Shown here: positions 16,616 to 29,517 of the stretch, piece after piece | Numbering within the stretch: the stretch's first letter is position 1 | Layout: each line of letters begins with the position of its first letter | Origin: a bacterium | GTDB taxonomy: Bacteria > Electryoneota > AABM5-125-24 > Hatepunaeales > Hatepunaeaceae | NCBI GenBank assembly: GCA_021734165.1 | Contig: JAIPJL010000005.1 | Span: 1 to 64,000 of the forward strand | Reading direction: 5' to 3' | Length of the DNA: 64,000 nt | Translations under genes and position numbers: made by a program | Notes under the pieces: generated by a model | What the model was told of the DNA's origin: nothing | The model's input: the letters and a program-made list of their open reading frames with translations, nothing else | Database searches by the model: none

Positions 16616-16810
16616 ATGGCTCGCTGCACAAGAACAACCAATCTCGAAGTCCATCACAAAAACCGGGCGGGAGGAAACAGCCTCGGCAACGCTCAGGTAC
16701 TATGTCATAAATGTCATTCTATGACAAGCTCATTCGGCGCCACTGGCGCTTCACCACCCGATTTCTCAGAAACAACCAAATATCTAACGCTAAGTAATGC
16801 CGGAAATTGA
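16616..16810 (+). CDS. HNH-like mini-protein, possibly truncated
   Basis: Strong RBS (ggagggg); LEVHHKNRAGGNSLGNAQVLCHKCHS matches the HH…N…CxxCH pattern of HNH nucleases; only 64 aa. Confidence 0.55.
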   Translation: MARCTRTTNLEVHHKNRAGGNSLGNAQVLCHKCHSMTSSFGATGASPPDFSETTKYLTLSNAGN

Positions 16811-16981
16811 GGAGAATAAGCAAAAGCCAAGATCACTATAGTCTGGATTTAGCGTTTCATATATAGTGAGCTCTTTGAATTACACAAAAATAGTGTTATA
16901 ATATAACTTGCAAAGTTTATTGAACAAAGTTGTAATGTATTCAAAAACATCAACTTACACAGCAGTTTGGAGGTCGGTTTA

Positions 16982-19900
16982 ATGAAAGCAACCATTGATA
17001 CTGCTGACCTCCTGCTTCAGAGCGCCTATAAGGATTTGGGCTTTGAAGATGGAGTTCTTCTTGAAGCTACTGAAAAGCCCACGTCATCATCCGAATCAGC
17101 GTGGGTGGACAAAGGCGATTGGTTAACACTAGCCAAGACCATCGACGCGGAAAAGATATTCTTCGTAGAGAATAATCCGGTTATTATATTTGCAAAACGG
17201 GAAGAAACCGGATCCGCAGTTTGGCGAGAAGTCTTCAACCTTGCCTGGTGTATGGCACGCCCTCCGATTCTATTTCTTGCCCAACCCGGCTTACTCTCAG
17301 TTCTTGATCTCACTCACTCACCAGCGAGTCAACATGATGACACCACGACTCGTGAAAAACGCCTCCTTGCTTCAGTAACGCGAGCTACTGATGTGCAGAT
17401 CAGCCTGCAGAAGTACCATCGTTATCAAATTGAATCTGGAAAGATATTCGAGGATGAGAACCGATTCGCTTTTAATGATCGTGCTGATCGTGCCCTAATT
17501 CGTGATTTAAAACTGGTCAGAGAAGCGCTGGTTAAAAAAAACCTTCCGATTGAACATGTTCACTCGTTGATAGGTAGGTCGATCTTTATCAGGTATCTTG
17601 AAGATAGAGGTGTAATAACGAGTGATTATTATCAAAAGGTTGCTGATCAAAATAAATCATGGACTGGATTAGTTAACGAAGCAATAAAAAACGCAAATAA
17701 TACAGACAATAAAAAGTCAATTTATGTACATACTCTTTCAAATAAGGAATTTATATATACTCTATATAAACAGCTTCATATCGACTTTAATGGTGATATG
17801 TTTCCATTAGATACAAATGAGGAGAATAAAGTTACAGAAGATCATTTGAGATTATTGCAGAGTTTACTCGTAGGAAAAATTCCACAAGAAACATCAGGAC
17901 AATCACAACTGTTTTTCTTCGCATACGATTTTAAAATAATACCGATCGAACTTATTAGCAGTATCTATGAAGAATTCTATAGTCTTGAAAAAGGAAAATC
18001 TTCGAATCAAGGTAGCTTCTACACACCCGCAGCTCTTGTTGAATACGTAGTTTCGCAGACAATTACAGAAGAGATATTAGATAAAAAACCTCGTATATTA
18101 GATCCTGCATGTGGATCCGGTATTTTTCTGGTTGAGTCTTTCCGTCGAATAGTTCGGCATTTGGTTCGTAAAAACGAAGGTCAGAGATTATCAGCAGACC
18201 AGTTACGAAATATTCTAAAAGAACAAATCACTGGGATTGAGATCAATCCTGAAGCCGTTCGCGTTGCTGCTTTTAGTCTTTATCTTGCGTTATTGCATTA
18301 CCAGCGTCCATCAGATATTCTTAAAAGTCCAAAATTACCGAATCTAACCTATAAATCAGAAAATAAATTTGCCAGTTCAAATCACCATTTTGATATACTC
18401 CTACCATTTAATGCGTTTGAGCTTGAGAAAAATATTTCTAATCCAAATGTTATTAAACGATTTGCATCAGGTTCATTCGATATAATAGTCGGTAATCCAC
18501 CATGGGGTGGTTCTAGAGGTAAGGACACACAAACTGTTATTGAGATTAAAAAAGCGACGGAATGGTGTGAAAAAATCAATAGATCTGTTGGAAATTGTGA
18601 ATTGTCACAGGCATTTATCCACCTATCAAATGATTTCCTACGTGAAGGGGGTCGAATTGGATTACTTGTATCGACAGCAGTTTTCTTTAATCGTAATGAT
18701 AAAAGTCTTGAGTTCAGGCATCAGTGGTTAAAAGAAACGAGTTTATCGCAGGTAGTAAATTTTGCTGCCGTTAGAGATGTTTTTTTTAGTAAAGGCAGAG
18801 AAGCAAAAGCAATCGCACCGTTTGCCTCTGTCGTTTTTGATAAAATACCTCCTCAGAGAAACAAACGATTCCAGTATTGGTCTGCTAAGAAAACAGCTTT
18901 TATCGGTGGTACACAGTCCGTACTTCTTAGTCTGCCGGATCTAAAAACACTTCGACAGGAATCTGTACTGCATGATGATGAATTATGGAAAATATACTGG
19001 TGGGGTGGTCACCATGATGAAGCTCTAATACATGCGCTACGATTAGAAACTTCTCTACAGGGACAGTTGAATAATGGGAATAAATTAGATTCTGTCATTG
19101 GTCTGGGGTTCTCAGAAGCATCGAAGGATAAGCCAAGTGAATGGTTGTGTAATTATTCAGAACTGCCAAAATCAGCGTTTGAAAGATATGGTACACTCAA
19201 GAGGGATAAATTCATCGATCCACCTTCTGATGGTGTAGAGCGTGACAGAAATCCTGAACCTCCTAACAGAAATCCTAAACGATCTAAACTTCCTATTTTA
19301 TATGAAGGATTACGTCTGCTCATTAGACGTGGAATTCAGCAAAAAAATCGTGCTGATGGTAAATTGATAGCGCGATTGGAATCCGATTCTTTTTGTTTTA
19401 GGAATTTCATATATGGGGTTCCTATTAATGATGATATGCAATCAAATGCAAAAGTTCTCCTTGGTATTATATGGTCGTCATTGATTCGCTATTATCTATG
19501 GATGACATCTGGGTCCTGGGTAGGGTGGCATTATGAATTGCGAAAATCAGATATTCTAAATTTACCAATACGATTACCTGCTGACAGAAAGGTGAGACAA
19601 CGAATTGAAGAAATTGTGGACAAGTTGAGAAACCTGAATCAAAAGAATCTTCTTAATCAGAAAGATGTTATTCCTGAAAACAGTTTATATGTAAAGCAAC
19701 TTGAAACAAAATTGGATGAAACGATATTTGATTTATATGAGCTTACATTTGATGAACGTGATCTCGTAAATGATATGTGTTCTTTAGGTATTGATTTGTT
19801 TTATCATGGTAGAGAAAGCGATGCCGTAAAGCCTGTGATTATCGATTTAGATAACATCAATCTTGGTAGAATTAATGATCTTTCAATTGATAGGGAGCAA

Positions 19901-20308
19901 TCTGGAATATCTGGTTATCTAAGATCATTTCTTGATATCTGGAACCGCGAGCTTGAACCAAATGGAGAATTTCGCTGGAGAGTCCTTCTACCTTCAGAAA
20001 GGCAAACCTTATTGGCTATTATTTTTGAAACTGAAGATAGAAAAGATCCTTTACCTGATCCGATTGAAAGTAATGATGTTAAGTTAAATGAGATACTATC
20101 ACGATTGAATGATACTACAAGAGTCAAAATAAGTCGAAGAATTTATATTGATGGATTGGTAAGAACTGTATCCGAAAATGATATTATTATTATTAAAAGA
20201 AATGAACGCAGACTTTGGACAAGAACAGCAGCTCGTGAAGATGCTGAGGCAACACTCCTTCAAGCAATAAATAGACAGAATTTGGCGATTGCGAGGCAAA
20301 AGTCTTGA
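16982..20308 (+). CDS. Large N6-adenine DNA methyltransferase (Eco57I/type IIG/PglX-like)
   Basis: Motif I ILDPACGSGIFLVESFRR; motif IV FDIIVGNPPWGG; RBS GGAGG just upstream of ATG 16982 (ORF call at 16967 is probably too long). Confidence 0.88.
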   Translation: MKATIDTADLLLQSAYKDLGFEDGVLLEATEKPTSSSESAWVDKGDWLTLAKTIDAEKIFFVENNPVIIFAKREETGSAVWREVFNLAWCMARPPILFLAQPGLLSVLDLTHSPASQHDDTTTREKRLLASVTRATDVQISLQKYHRYQIESGKIFEDENRFAFNDRADRALIRDLKLVREALVKKNLPIEHVHSLIGRSIFIRYLEDRGVITSDYYQKVADQNKSWTGLVNEAIKNANNTDNKKSIYVHTLSNKEFIYTLYKQLHIDFNGDMFPLDTNEENKVTEDHLRLLQSLLVGKIPQETSGQSQLFFFAYDFKIIPIELISSIYEEFYSLEKGKSSNQGSFYTPAALVEYVVSQTITEEILDKKPRILDPACGSGIFLVESFRRIVRHLVRKNEGQRLSADQLRNILKEQITGIEINPEAVRVAAFSLYLALLHYQRPSDILKSPKLPNLTYKSENKFASSNHHFDILLPFNAFELEKNISNPNVIKRFASGSFDIIVGNPPWGGSRGKDTQTVIEIKKATEWCEKINRSVGNCELSQAFIHLSNDFLREGGRIGLLVSTAVFFNRNDKSLEFRHQWLKETSLSQVVNFAAVRDVFFSKGREAKAIAPFASVVFDKIPPQRNKRFQYWSAKKTAFIGGTQSVLLSLPDLKTLRQESVLHDDELWKIYWWGGHHDEALIHALRLETSLQGQLNNGNKLDSVIGLGFSEASKDKPSEWLCNYSELPKSAFERYGTLKRDKFIDPPSDGVERDRNPEPPNRNPKRSKLPILYEGLRLLIRRGIQQKNRADGKLIARLESDSFCFRNFIYGVPINDDMQSNAKVLLGIIWSSLIRYYLWMTSGSWVGWHYELRKSDILNLPIRLPADRKVRQRIEEIVDKLRNLNQKNLLNQKDVIPENSLYVKQLETKLDETIFDLYELTFDERDLVNDMCSLGIDLFYHGRESDAVKPVIIDLDNINLGRINDLSIDREQSGISGYLRSFLDIWNRELEPNGEFRWRVLLPSERQTLLAIIFETEDRKDPLPDPIESNDVKLNEILSRLNDTTRVKISRRIYIDGLVRTVSENDIIIIKRNERRLWTRTAAREDAEATLLQAINRQNLAIARQKS

Positions 20309-20985
20309 GCCGTCCAAACCTGTACTATCTCGCAACTTGGGAAAATCATGTTGAGAGAGTACTTGAAATATTTAACGTTGCCTTGGTTCAGCTTGCAAGT
20401 GAATCTACACTACCGTTACCTGAAGACAATATTAATCGAAAATTGCTTTTTTATGCAAGAAAAGCAAATTATCAGCTTATTCGCTTAGGTAGAGGGACTT
20501 CCTCGAATATTATGTATGAAGCAAGTAATCAACCTGCTGAAACAGATAAAGAGCGAGCAAAACGTGAATCAAAACGTCCCGATTTTCAATGTGGGTTTGT
20601 TGATCATCTGCAGGAAAAAGATTTATTTTTTTTGATTGAATGTAAACGTCTCGGAAATCCCCCGTCTCCAACTTGGATATTGAATAGCAATTACATAAAT
20701 AATGGTGTACAGCGATTTATTAATCCAGAATGGGGTTATGGTGCTGGAGTTTCAACAAGTGCCATGATTGGATATATACAATCCATGACTCACGATGAAA
20801 TTTTTACTGAAGTCAATGCTTACGGAGTTGAGTCAGGTTTTCCGGAAATAACATATAATGAAAATAATTGGCAAGAAAACGGTGTGAGTAAATTAGAACA
20901 AACACTTAATCGTCGCATTGAACCAAGTCCTTTTTTGCTTCATCATCTTTGGGTTGATCTACGCATTGCGTATTTGCAGAGGTAA
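20305..20985 (+). CDS. Uncharacterised protein with PD-(D/E)XK-like motif, coupled to the methylase
   Basis: RPDFQCGFVDHLQEKDLFFLIECKRLGN matches the PD…(D/E)XK spacing; TTG start overlaps methylase stop. Confidence 0.6.
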   Translation: MSRPNLYYLATWENHVERVLEIFNVALVQLASESTLPLPEDNINRKLLFYARKANYQLIRLGRGTSSNIMYEASNQPAETDKERAKRESKRPDFQCGFVDHLQEKDLFFLIECKRLGNPPSPTWILNSNYINNGVQRFINPEWGYGAGVSTSAMIGYIQSMTHDEIFTEVNAYGVESGFPEITYNENNWQENGVSKLEQTLNRRIEPSPFLLHHLWVDLRIAYLQR

Positions 20986-23883: not shown

Positions 23884-26709
23884 CTACTTGATTAGCGCTG
23901 CCTTTGTAATCATCACAGTATTACCCGCTTTCAACTGGAACAGGTAAATACCGGCAGGCTGGTTTTGTGCATCCCAACTAATGTGATGCTGTCCTGCTTT
24001 GAAATCACCCTGGTTAAGCTGCTCAACCAAACGTCCGTTCATGTCAAACACATTCAAAACGATCTCTGACTGCTCAGGAATATCGAAAGCAATGCTGACC
24101 GTCGGATTGAAAGGATTTGGATAAACTGAGCTGATGCGGTATTCGTTTGGAACGGGTGCATCCAGCTCAGGAGCGCTCATCTCATGGGTTCCTGGTCTTG
24201 TCCAACCGATAAGCCAGTTGTAATCAGGTCCGACAGCTCCGACAAAGTTAACTGCGTCGAAGAATTCATTGTCTGGAACTTCAGCAAAGCCATAAAGAGC
24301 CGGTGAATTGCCTGCTGGGCTGAAATTAGGCATATCATGCCTGATAGGATCGAATAAACGCGGATCCACAAATCGATTGTGCTGGTTCAGTTCAGTTATG
24401 AATTCGGAAGTTGTGAAAACATAATTATTTTCATCGTCTTCATCTGTTTCGCCAGTTTGAGCTGTTTCAACGTTGTGGTAGAAAATACTATTGTCAACTA
24501 CCAGGTTACCGTTCAGATGTCCGCCTGTCCAGGCGTTGTTGAAGGTAGCTTCATGGTCGATGTCGATGCCGCAATCGCCAAAGTTCATAACGATGGCGTT
24601 CTTGATCTCAGCGCCAGTACCTTCACGAAGCAGCATGCCTATATCACTCTCAGCGCCATCTCTGTCACCAACTATAGTTACGTTATAAACCTTCGGATTG
24701 GAACGCGGTGTAGCGTCGTTTTCTTCACCGTTGTTATCGCATTCAAATCCCTGGTCAGCATCGTCACCATATTGCTGCGCTACCCAGAACTGTCCCATAC
24801 CGTGCCAGCCGTCAGTCCAGTCGAATGAATCATCAGCAGCGCCTGTGATGTATATATGCTTTGCATTAACAGTACCACCAAAGAACTCGATACCGTCATC
24901 CTTGTTCATGTGAACCTGGATGTAGTCAATAATTGTGGCGTCACCAACACCCTGCAGAGCCAGACCGTTCAGTTCGTTATCGGGTGAAATTTCCCTGCCT
25001 GCGAATTCGATACGGCAATAGCGCATACAACCGCTGTCATCGTGAGGATTATTACCGCCATAAGGACCGGTGTCACCTTCACCCTCAGCTTCTGCTCCTG
25101 TATTCAGAGGAGCGCCTCCGTTGATAATGACGCCGCCCCAGTCTGCACGATCCTGTTCACCATCGATCTGGTCGGATGTAAACACTATCGGGAAATAAGG
25201 TGAACCGTTAGCATTGATCTTGGAACCACGCGCTATAACCAGCATACCGTCGGTAGCCTGCTCACCGTAAATAGTTGTTCCCGGTTCAATTGTCAGCGTT
25301 ATATGATGATTTGCGTCGCCGACAAATACGCCACCGCGTAAAAGATATTCATTATCTGCTGTGAGTGTCATATCTTCCTGAATTACACCCTCAAGTACTG
25401 CAAATCCCGGTTCAGTATTTTCCGGTTCACAGCTACGTGTCCAACCTTCCAGCCAATTGTTATCGGGACCGACTCCACCGACGAAATTGACCTGCTCGAA
25501 GAAATCATTGTCCGGAGGTTGAGTGTAGCCTTTTAATGCAGGAGCGCCGCCACGGGGTGTGAAATCAGGCTCGACCTTGTTGTAAGGATCTCTCAATTGA
25601 GGATCAAAACAACGATTGTGCATGTTGTACATTGTAAGGAACTCACCTGTCGTGAATGCATAGTTAGCTTCATCATCTTCATCGGTTTCACCTGTCTGGA
25701 ATGGTTCCTTGTTATCGTACACAATGGCGTGATTAACAACAAGGTTGCCATTCAGGGAATTGTTTGTCCAGGCATTGTTGAAAGTTGCCTCATGATCAAG
25801 GTCGATACCACAGTCACCAAATCCCATTATGATAGCGTTTTGAATCGTTGCGCCAGTACCTTCACGCAGCAACATACCGATATCGCTCTCAGAACCAAAG
25901 CGATCACCTACTAACGTGACATTATATATCTGAGGATTTGAACGCGGAGTAGCATCGTTCTCTTCAGCGTTGTTGTCAGCTTCGATACCTTGATCAGCAT
26001 CGTCACCATATTGTTGCGCAACCCAGAACTGACCCATTCCTTGCCAGCCGTCCGTCCAGTCAAATGAATCATCCGCTGCTCCCGTAATGTAGATGTATTT
26101 TGCATTAACTGTACCTCCAAAGAACTCGATACCGTCATCTTTGTTCATGTGAACTTGTAAGTACTCTATGACGGTGCCGTCGCCAACACCCTGCAGAGCC
26201 AATCCGTTGAGTTCATTGTCGGGTGAGATTTCTCTGCCGGCAAATTCGATACGGCAATAACGCATAGTACCGCTGTTGTCGTGCGGATCGTCACCGCCGT
26301 AAGTTCCTGTGTCACCCTCACCTTCGGCTTGTCCATTACCTCCGATATTCAAAGGCGCGAGTCCATTGATAATGACTCCGCCCCAGTCAGCTCGATCCTG
26401 TTCGCCTTCCTCCTGGTCAGAAGTAAAAACGATGGGAGCGTCCGCTGTACCTTCAGCCATGATCCTGGAATATTGAGCGATGACCAACATACCGTCGGTA
26501 GCTTGTTCACCGTAAACATGTGTTCCGGGTTCAATCGTCAGAATTGTCTCATTTTCACCATTACCGATAAAGACACCGCCTCGCAGCAGGTATTCGTTAT
26601 CAGGAGTAAGAGTCATATCATCTGTTATTGTACCCTGAAGTGTAATAAGCTCACATAATCCGGCATTTACCGAAATCAGGAGCATTAAAATTACTAAAAA
26701 TTGTTTCAC
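23884..26709 (-). CDS. Secreted protein with two tandem ~400-aa repeats and a T9SS type A sorting domain
   Basis: Signal peptide; repeated blocks 'MTLT.DNEYLLRGGVF.G…TIEPGT..YGEQATDGMLVIA…'; C-term SSVYPNPFNPTVSIAFDIPEQ…GIYLFQLKAG. Confidence 0.88.
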   Translation of the reverse strand: MKQFLVILMLLISVNAGLCELITLQGTITDDMTLTPDNEYLLRGGVFIGNGENETILTIEPGTHVYGEQATDGMLVIAQYSRIMAEGTADAPIVFTSDQEEGEQDRADWGGVIINGLAPLNIGGNGQAEGEGDTGTYGGDDPHDNSGTMRYCRIEFAGREISPDNELNGLALQGVGDGTVIEYLQVHMNKDDGIEFFGGTVNAKYIYITGAADDSFDWTDGWQGMGQFWVAQQYGDDADQGIEADNNAEENDATPRSNPQIYNVTLVGDRFGSESDIGMLLREGTGATIQNAIIMGFGDCGIDLDHEATFNNAWTNNSLNGNLVVNHAIVYDNKEPFQTGETDEDDEANYAFTTGEFLTMYNMHNRCFDPQLRDPYNKVEPDFTPRGGAPALKGYTQPPDNDFFEQVNFVGGVGPDNNWLEGWTRSCEPENTEPGFAVLEGVIQEDMTLTADNEYLLRGGVFVGDANHHITLTIEPGTTIYGEQATDGMLVIARGSKINANGSPYFPIVFTSDQIDGEQDRADWGGVIINGGAPLNTGAEAEGEGDTGPYGGNNPHDDSGCMRYCRIEFAGREISPDNELNGLALQGVGDATIIDYIQVHMNKDDGIEFFGGTVNAKHIYITGAADDSFDWTDGWHGMGQFWVAQQYGDDADQGFECDNNGEENDATPRSNPKVYNVTIVGDRDGAESDIGMLLREGTGAEIKNAIVMNFGDCGIDIDHEATFNNAWTGGHLNGNLVVDNSIFYHNVETAQTGETDEDDENNYVFTTSEFITELNQHNRFVDPRLFDPIRHDMPNFSPAGNSPALYGFAEVPDNEFFDAVNFVGAVGPDYNWLIGWTRPGTHEMSAPELDAPVPNEYRISSVYPNPFNPTVSIAFDIPEQSEIVLNVFDMNGRLVEQLNQGDFKAGQHHISWDAQNQPAGIYLFQLKAGNTVMITKAALIK

Positions 26710-26742: not shown

Positions 26743-29517
26743 TTAATTAATGTAAGTTAAACCTATTGAAAATGTCGATCCCAAGCGGTATTTCTGTGTG
26801 TAATCATCACCTTGTTGAAATTTGACTTCAGGATCAAGAATATTTTTCCATGCAAACTTTGTTTTTAGTTTCTTACTGATTGGTTGTTGAATAACAAAAT
26901 CCAGATCCGGATGTGGCAGCTCGTAAACATCAGGCAGAGTATTTGCCCCAACCTCATCAATACGCTTGCCAAAGACATGGTATAAAATATCAGCTTGAGT
27001 CTTGGTGGTTGGATGCTGGAAATTTATTCCGAAATTAAACAGATAGGGAGACTGACCATGCAGGGGTCTCCTGTCTAATGTTTGAACCCCTTTTGTATCT
27101 GAAGTGTCGATGATGATATCCGATTGCAGAAGAGTCAGATTTGTGGATATTCCCCAATATGACAATCCTGGATGAATATCACCAAGTCTTTGCCTTAATT
27201 CCAGTTCAACACCATAATTTTCTGCGCCACTGGCATTCTGCCAGGTCTGCCGATTTTGAGCAGTTCCTTCTACAATGGTTTCAATCGGATTAATGAAGTT
27301 TTTGAAAAATACACTTACCGCAACTAAATTAACCTTTGAGTAACCATACTTCAATTCATATCTAAGGTCGAAGTTTTGAATTATAGCCCGTTTAAGATAG
27401 GGATTACCTTTTACCGAGTGACCACCGATAATGTCTGTGAACTCGAAAGGTGAAAGTTCTCTGTAATCAGGTCTTGATACTGTTTGACTTGCAGCAAACC
27501 TGAGATTCCGATTTTCATCAAATGAATAGATCAGGTTCATAGCCGGCATTAGATCTTCCGACTTGTATGAAGTTGTTGAATCAACATCAGGCTGGCTGAT
27601 ATGACCTGTTTTAAGAGTAACTTCTGATTTTTCAAGACGGACACCACCAATAAAACGCAACTTGGATGTGATTTGATAGTCTGTCATCAGGAAAGCGCCC
27701 CATAATGATTGATCAGCATTATACCAATCTGTCGGTCGGGTTGATTCCCATAAAAAGAAAGCGTCTTTATGGATATTATCAGGATTGAAAAGTTCTTCCG
27801 GCGTTTGGGTAAAATCGAAATTTGCCGCGGTCATATCGCGTGTGTCACGACCAAATTGAAATTTACGTGAATTGAATTCTCTATGTTTTTCAAGAACTAA
27901 AGCGCCTGATTTTAATTTTATTCTGTCAGTTAACGGGTAGGTAAAATCAATATCGTAATTCCATGAATCATCATTTAACTCGCTGAAGAAATGTGACCCA
28001 CTTTGATTTTCATCTGCAAATACATAAACAGAGTCATCTCTTGCTTTTTCGTACTGTACTTCGCGAGTGTCGGGTTCTTCTCTATAGCCATGAGAATAGG
28101 TTACACGCCACTGTGTAATCGTGTTTCCGAGATTATACAATAAATGCTGTCCTGATAATTGATAAGTTGATATAGTTTGTGCGACCATTCTCAGCCTGGT
28201 GTCAATAACATCTTTATCTCTGTCACGATTGGTACCTTCAAACCTGCGAAGTTCGTCTTGGAAGTCACGATTCAGCAGAATATTAAGGTTTAGTTTTGTA
28301 AAGGGGGATAGTTCCAGCTTGAAAGCTGATAAACCACCGAGTTCGATTGCCTGATCATATTTGTAGAATGTGTAATTGTGCATTAATCCCATTACACCTT
28401 CAGAAACACTTTTATAAATTCGTCGTTCGTTTTCTTCATAAGCGCTTGCATTTTTATAAAGCGCTGATAAAAGATATTCAAACTTCTTGCCAAACATCTG
28501 CGTGGAGTTGGCATAAGACATTGCGAGGTCACCTGTTGGAAGTGGATCTTTTCTTTCGCCGCTCCATATATTTGAAAACATCTCCGCATATCGTTCCATT
28601 TCTTCCGGTGAAAAACCGGTTGTATCAAATCGGCTGTCTTCATACAGTTTTTCTATTTGCCTGATCTCATCCGGCATTTGGCGTGTGCCATCATCAAATC
28701 CCAGAAAATCATATTTGCCACCTCTATAATCCATAAAGCTTTGTCTGCCGAGAAGTATGTTATATCCTAACGAGCCGGAGATTTTGAATTCTTTTTGTTT
28801 GAGGAATTCCCAGGTATTCATGTCAACCACTCCACCGCCAAATTCACCATTCTGATCCGGCAGGAATGATTTATTTACAGTGACTTTGCTCATCATTGAT
28901 GAAGGAAAAAGATCAAGAGAGACGCCGCTTTGGTTTGGTTTCGTTCCTGAAACCTGTGAATTGTTAAGTGTTACCTTTGAATATCGAAGACCCAGACCAC
29001 GAATAATAGGATCTCCGCCGACGGTTGAAACGCCGGTTGTTCTTCTCACCACAGCAGCGATGTCGGGATCCGGCAGTCTTTTCATCTGTTCACCAGAAAG
29101 AGCGTCCGTAATCGATGCTGATTGAAATCTGTCTGTAAGTTCACGCTCAATCGAACCTTTCTTTGCGATACCGACTACTTTCGCATCTTCAAGTAAAACT
29201 ACCGAGCCTGTCATCTCAATATTGAATTCAAGTTCATCATCAAGATTGACGATGATGTCATCGTAAACGAAATTCTTGTATCCTATACATGAAGAGCGAA
29301 GAGTATATACTCCAGGCTCTAAATTTGTAATTATATATTTGCCGTTAATATCGGTTGAAGCGCCAAGACTGGTTTCTTCAAGAACCACATTAACGCTTAC
29401 AAGCGGTTCATTAGTCTTTGCATCAGTCACAAAACCTGATATTACTGCTGTTTGTCCAATTCTGCAGAGAAAACCAACTGCAAGAAGAACACTCATATAT
29501 TTTATTTTTAATCCCAC
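26743..29517 (-). CDS. TonB-dependent outer-membrane receptor with carboxypeptidase-like regulatory domain
   Basis: N-term VISGFVTDAKTNEPLVSVNVVLEETSLGASTDINGKYIITNLEPGVYTL; plug region ITDALSGEQMKRLPDPDIAAVVRRTTGVSTVGGDPIIRGLG; β-barrel C-term. Confidence 0.92.
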   Translation of the reverse strand: MGLKIKYMSVLLAVGFLCRIGQTAVISGFVTDAKTNEPLVSVNVVLEETSLGASTDINGKYIITNLEPGVYTLRSSCIGYKNFVYDDIIVNLDDELEFNIEMTGSVVLLEDAKVVGIAKKGSIERELTDRFQSASITDALSGEQMKRLPDPDIAAVVRRTTGVSTVGGDPIIRGLGLRYSKVTLNNSQVSGTKPNQSGVSLDLFPSSMMSKVTVNKSFLPDQNGEFGGGVVDMNTWEFLKQKEFKISGSLGYNILLGRQSFMDYRGGKYDFLGFDDGTRQMPDEIRQIEKLYEDSRFDTTGFSPEEMERYAEMFSNIWSGERKDPLPTGDLAMSYANSTQMFGKKFEYLLSALYKNASAYEENERRIYKSVSEGVMGLMHNYTFYKYDQAIELGGLSAFKLELSPFTKLNLNILLNRDFQDELRRFEGTNRDRDKDVIDTRLRMVAQTISTYQLSGQHLLYNLGNTITQWRVTYSHGYREEPDTREVQYEKARDDSVYVFADENQSGSHFFSELNDDSWNYDIDFTYPLTDRIKLKSGALVLEKHREFNSRKFQFGRDTRDMTAANFDFTQTPEELFNPDNIHKDAFFLWESTRPTDWYNADQSLWGAFLMTDYQITSKLRFIGGVRLEKSEVTLKTGHISQPDVDSTTSYKSEDLMPAMNLIYSFDENRNLRFAASQTVSRPDYRELSPFEFTDIIGGHSVKGNPYLKRAIIQNFDLRYELKYGYSKVNLVAVSVFFKNFINPIETIVEGTAQNRQTWQNASGAENYGVELELRQRLGDIHPGLSYWGISTNLTLLQSDIIIDTSDTKGVQTLDRRPLHGQSPYLFNFGINFQHPTTKTQADILYHVFGKRIDEVGANTLPDVYELPHPDLDFVIQQPISKKLKTKFAWKNILDPEVKFQQGDDYTQKYRLGSTFSIGLTYIN

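Follow-up and report, generated by a model that had tools for sequence, protein, structure and literature searches.

Type IIG or Eco57I-like restriction enzymes (BpuSI, DrdV, Eco57I) are built in the order PD-(D/E)XK fold, helical linker, gamma-class methylase and target-recognition domain (TRD), and are defined by an active nuclease in that same chain. Type III systems (Mod/Res) place methylation and recognition in one chain and cutting in another. Type IIB systems (BcgI, BsaXI) are two-gene, ATP-independent, multi-subunit restriction-modification systems, as described for BsaXI (PMC11997821). The subject of this analysis is a pair of adjacent genes, encoding a large N6-adenine methylase and a 226-aa protein, within a 64,000-nucleotide stretch of bacterial DNA (GenBank assembly GCA_021734165.1, contig JAIPJL010000005.1, positions 1 to 64,000; hereafter the window). 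The pair is probably an ATP-independent two-subunit restriction-modification system of type IIG descent; the large chain would methylate and recognise DNA and the small chain would cut it.

The large chain shares the domain order of type IIG and carries both a gamma-class adenine methylase and a TRD. Unlike in type IIG enzymes, its own nuclease fold has lost the E-x-K residues, and the nuclease is encoded by a separate, obligate gene without a name in any library. The division of labour recalls type III, but the small subunit comprises 226 aa of nuclease core only, with no helicase or ATPase, unlike Res with its superfamily 2 (SF2) helicase. In type IIB the fusion joins nuclease and methylase, and specificity has a gene of its own; here the methylase is fused to the specificity region instead, and the separate gene encodes the nuclease. 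A split type IIG enzyme with a trans nuclease has been proposed in Haloferax (HVO_A0006 with HVO_A0237; PMC4389544). HVO_A0006 is a detached ordinary IIG nuclease fragment (PD-X14-EAK) at a remote locus; in the present pair, in contrast, the nuclease belongs to a family of its own and is encoded by an obligate neighbouring gene, and the dead N-terminal domain is kept. In an archaeal survey, HG13 weakly resembles Eco57I-like type IIG systems and occurs in Methanosarcina (PMC10609329); it is possibly the clade analysed here. The pair was not found in the open-access literature, which is weak evidence of absence since only open-access text was covered. It is set apart here as a variant that fails the single-chain-nuclease feature of type IIG and divides its functions unlike types III and IIB.

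The pair appears to be a widespread, previously unnamed, putative DNA-defence unit of bacteria and archaea. In present libraries the large chain scores as a single-chain type IIG enzyme and the nuclease has no name; in many genomes, restriction systems may therefore be counted and interpreted wrongly. If an exchangeable TRD in the other chain does direct the nuclease, the pair would provide a compact model for the ATP-free licensing of a nuclease by a methylase, and a source of modular restriction enzymes.

The proposed mechanism is as follows. The large chain would recognise a DNA site via its TRD and methylate adenine there. Its ancestral N-terminal nuclease domain would have kept the fold and lost catalysis, and the co-translated 226-aa subunit would be the active PD-(D/E)XK nuclease. 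The small subunit would most likely dock on the large chain via the dead N-terminal domain and/or a C-terminal motif, and would cut DNA whose site is unmethylated. Complex formation, methylase-dependent cleavage and a role in phage defence are all putative.

The two genes and their pairing

A preliminary description of the window, made from its letters, had proposed a compact two-gene module: a protein of about 1108 aa with DPACGSGIFL and NPPW motifs, whose stop overlaps the TTG start of a small protein containing RPDFQCGF...FFLIECKR. Each of these elements was recovered. The open reading frame (ORF) of the methylase begins at ATG 16982, with GGAGG upstream at 16969-16973, and ends at 20308; an alternative start, TTG 16967, overlaps this ribosome-binding site. 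Pfam matches to Eco57I (PF07669, 2e-23) and N6_Mtase (PF02384, 3e-19) were obtained, and the best PADLOC match was the type IIG profile PDLC03603 (nearly full length, E 2e-61). The chain is laid out as a degenerate N-terminal PD-(D/E)XK domain, a helical linker, the N6-adenine methylase, the TRD region and a C-terminal motif. W1084 and D1092 are invariant within this last motif, where the nuclease may dock. The two genes share 4 bp: the stop codon of the methylase, TGA (20306-20308), overlaps the TTG of the small gene (20305-20307), and GAGG is found at 20293-20296, 8 nt upstream of that TTG. Such an overlap of stop and start is commonly seen in translationally coupled genes.

The small chain and 58 homologues were scanned individually, and no credible Pfam, NCBIfam or PADLOC match was returned. 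Among 74 homologues, often only about 20% identical, D93 and K114 are conserved in 100%, E40 in 99% and E112 in 97%, and Y130 and H214 also fall within the 97-100% set; the RPDFQCGF...FFLIECKR stretch is no chance motif. The AlphaFold2 model (59 sequences) had a predicted local distance difference test score (pLDDT) of 91.6 and canonical topology, with helices at residues 40-60 and 126-138 and strands at 69-71, 94-100, 105-116 and 151-158. The catalytic residues fall at the canonical core positions of the modelled PD-(D/E)XK fold, with the conserved D and (D/E)-x-K (D93, E112, K114) on adjacent strands. The fold suspected in the preliminary description is thus predicted for the 226-aa protein, which by model and conserved active site is a predicted nuclease. 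No link beyond the motif itself was found by hhalign between the small subunit and either the IIG nuclease domain or the dead N-terminal domain, and descent from these is therefore not claimed.

A profile of the methylases was run on genome contigs and 80 loci were kept, from bacteria and archaea. A gene of the small family lies directly downstream in all 78 assessable loci, mostly overlapping or a few bases away; at the remaining two the methylase is truncated by the contig end. In the opposite direction, a profile of the small subunit alone matched 36 of the 393 Bacteroidales genomes sampled. The methylase was directly upstream at 28 of 30 Bacteroidales small-gene loci, the other two being cut by a contig edge, and the same held for all four small genes in a broad genome sample, giving 32 of 32 independently found small genes overall. 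The pairing is obligate wherever testable, and the small protein, whose wide occurrence alone would have spoken against the module, was never found without the methylase (28/28 in Bacteroidales, 4/4 in the broad sample). The pair is a large clade and not a local curiosity: it occurs in bacteria, archaea, cyanobacteria, planctomycetes, alphaproteobacterial plasmids and a few viral contigs. Single-sequence searches for the small gene gave no match in viral contigs, phages or E. coli. In Chitinophagales and Rhizobiales the pairing held in 11/11 cases, one of them decaying. In a decaying copy, L129, a stop lies inside the methylase and the nuclease is reduced to a fragment; both genes appear to have been lost together. 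A second weak match within the window's own genome (L003) was an unrelated ORF.

The N-terminal domain of the large chain

The first 160 residues of the large chain were modelled separately with AlphaFold2 (pLDDT 94). The Foldseek list for this domain mixed unrelated folds with many PD-(D/E)XK proteins (DUF820, Hjc, RecU, HsdR, DrdV, BpuSI). Among the single-chain relatives, hhalign linked it to the nuclease domain of one group (prob 92, E 7e-7) and not to that of the second, A6. Loss of the motif was scored by aligned-column counts; a loose D...ExK regular expression was dropped because shuffled sequences often match it. No alignment column at the E-x-K site combines an acidic residue with conservation, and [EDQ]xK occurs anywhere in the region in only 3 of 60 homologues. 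It is retained in 14/14 single-chain relatives, which lack the small gene, and in 59/59 small subunits. A tree built from the linker and methylase domain separated the 75 paired proteins from the 31 single-chain ones with no exception (support 0.99).

The N-terminal domain is accordingly best described as a predicted PD-(D/E)XK fold, in the type IIG position, that has probably lost catalysis; the active nuclease that marks a type IIG chain was not found in the large subunit. The simplest history has a single origin, with loss of the cis nuclease accompanying gain of the trans one. The preliminary description was right about the pair and had missed both the retained dead type IIG domain and the breadth of the clade. 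A broader proposal, held tentatively, is that the pair forms a distinct and unnamed restriction-modification class. One event would have uncoupled the IIG nuclease, the dead cis domain would have become a platform for docking and dimerisation, and an unrelated PD-(D/E)XK subunit would cut, with specificity changed by exchange of TRD cassettes while the nuclease is left untouched.

A dead N-terminal domain would also suit an orphan methylase, as the large chain alone may only methylate, with the small protein acting as a repair or regulatory nuclease (a Vsr-like nickase) or an accessory subunit. A helper of the Vsr type is expected to be dispensable, however, and here the pairing is strictly obligate and the catalytic residues are invariant, which makes this explanation very improbable.

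Exchange of the specificity region

The TRD was located by a drop in identity and carries a weak Pfam match, a TaqI_C-like trace at residues 778-868 of the large chain. Between methylases that are elsewhere 80-96% identical, the TRD falls to 20-40%. In the pair L079/L093, identity is mostly 80-96% before the TRD, 20-40% over most of its length and 93-96% at the C-terminus; by domain it is 89-92% for the methylase, 32-35% for the TRD and 74% for the nuclease, the last being as expected from divergence of the methylase core. At the DNA level two 83% blocks flank an unalignable gap, and in L122/L123 the TRD has likewise been replaced at the DNA level. L122/L123 is one of four further TRD-swap pairs with the nuclease retained, the others being L093/L096, L093/L097 and L059/L128. 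Across such replacements the nuclease keeps 58-78% identity.

These swaps bear on the main rival, an orthodox type II system in which the small protein would be a free-standing enzyme reading the same site as the methylase, with no complex. Its size of 226 aa fits orthodox PD-(D/E)XK enzymes, and nuclease divergence partly tracks the TRD. Replacement of the TRD beside a nuclease that stays 58-78% identical would nevertheless uncouple protection from cutting in such a system. Against it stand, too, a nuclease family alignable across bacteria and archaea despite changed TRDs, the coupled stop and start, and the obligate adjacency. We consider the orthodox arrangement unlikely. The swaps are hard to square with a nuclease reading the site alone and fit one that would be steered by the methylase chain. 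Of the two roles offered for the small protein in the preliminary description, effector or specificity factor, the first is retained and the second is not: its catalytic residues are invariant and the exchangeable specificity region is in the methylase.

Several observations weigh against the favoured two-subunit reading. Nuclease and TRD identity remained correlated when methylase and N-domain divergence were controlled for (partial r 0.56, 183 non-independent pairs), and the L059/L060 nucleases are more divergent than expected (46 vs 66%); on both counts the nuclease may contribute to recognition. None of the Foldseek matches of the N-terminal domain was below E 0.001, those of the small subunit were all weaker than this value, and the single-chain comparison set came from viral contigs only.

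Mobility, other defence systems and surroundings

The two genes have been transferred between genera as a self-contained unit. L047 and L058 (Flavihumibacter, Ferruginibacter), compared with more than 6 kb of flank per side, have 87% DNA identity that is confined to the two genes and about 110 and 25 bp beside them. L094 matches L085 and L086 at 95-96% across both genes and a further 77 and 102 bp, with only 178 bp of further downstream sequence in L094 to compare; L085 and L086 share a longer block with each other. No third gene is common to either comparison. The copies in Hoylesella, Xylanibacter and Bacteroides (L094, L085, L086) are about 95.7% identical in DNA, which points to recent transfer.

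The methylases PglX of BREX (bacteriophage exclusion) and DrmMI of DISARM (defence island system associated with restriction-modification) are likewise large gamma-class N6-adenine enzymes and match the large chain partially over the methylase domain. No PglZ, BrxC, DrmA or DrmB partners occur in the nearby ORF content, in contrast to those systems. The large chain scored far below the NCBIfam cut-offs of the PglX models and matched the DrmMI profile only partially. BREX membership was ruled out, the neighbours being housekeeping genes and the sole PglZ match of the genome lying on another contig, C110. No DrmA, DrmB or DrmC was seen among the ORFs around the pair, as judged from ORF content and with no dedicated DrmA/B/C profile search. 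The absence of a BREX or DISARM cluster, already remarked in the preliminary description, is thereby upheld, and together with the predicted fold and the obligate pairing it supports the compact two-gene reading given there. The PglZ-domain ORF itself (521 aa, C110:7060-7629, L225) may, by its length, be a PorX-type regulator of type IX secretion rather than a BREX component.

In Foldseek searches of the PDB, the small-subunit model matched McrC at the top (prob 0.66), with HamA (Hachiman) and MspJI lower and all weak; no sequence similarity to these nucleases was found and their partners differ. The distant likeness to McrC and HamA, together with a partner that is always co-encoded, would suit a non-classical, BREX- or methylation-associated defence system of the HamAB kind. 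There the large chain would mark self and the small nuclease, restrained by the methylase, would degrade invading or damaged DNA non-specifically. A helicase or ATPase partner is absent, though, the unit moves as two genes only, and the pair is placed next to type IIG, a lineage of restriction enzymes; such a system is improbable here. Coordinates of the features of the pair are collected in Table 1.

Table 1. Positions of features of the gene pair in the window
Feature	Position	Strand	Basis
Large-subunit ORF (1108 aa)	16982..20308	+	ORF list; Pfam; PADLOC profile
N-terminal domain, residues 1-160 from ATG: predicted PD-(D/E)XK fold without catalytic E-x-K	16982..17461	+	AlphaFold2, Foldseek, hhalign; core strands near 17147-17197
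Methylase motif I, DPACGSG (in DPACGSGIFL)	18101..18121	+	Near-invariant, 71 homologues
Methylase motif IV, NPPW (N6-adenine type)	18494..18505	+	NPP near-invariant, 71 homologues
Variable target-recognition region, about residues 681-1000 (TTG numbering)	19007..19966	+	Identity drop; DNA-level replacement
C-terminal motif, consensus IYIIKPNekRFWTrS.Al.DAD	20117..20266	+	Conservation; 93-96% identity kept across TRD swap
Small subunit, 226 aa, predicted PD-(D/E)XK nuclease	20305..20985	+	ORF; sequence; AlphaFold2
Small-subunit catalytic set: E40 20422-20424, D93 20581-20583, E112 20638-20640, K114 20644-20646	20422..20646	+	
H214, invariant C-terminal histidine of small subunit	20944..20946	+	73/74 homologues, remaining one a gap

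In some rhizobial and roseobacter plasmid copies a 158-aa ORF, helix-turn-helix-like by eye, lies upstream of the pair. It overlaps the methylase start at L006 (4366-4842) and L007 (4372-4848) and is perhaps a controller gene. A second Eco57I-type methylase gene (L007, 8928-11713) adjoins the pair on Bradyrhizobium plasmid pBel61. The plasmid copies L008 and L010 lie near antibiotic-resistance genes (a class 1 integron on pRSB223, and sul2 in Paracoccus).

In the window the neighbours of the pair are housekeeping genes. A 64-aa mini-ORF with an HNH-like motif (VHHKNRAGGNSLGNAQVLCHKCH) is found at 16616-16810 (+), some 170 bp before the methylase. No other fetched locus of the pair has it nearby, and involvement of HNH was ruled out. 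A 941-aa protein at 23884-26709 (-) is built from two halves that resemble each other (ITLQGTITDDMTLTPDNEYLLRGGVF... repeated), carries a secretion-type sorting domain at its C-terminus, and adjoins a TonB-type receptor (26743-29517).
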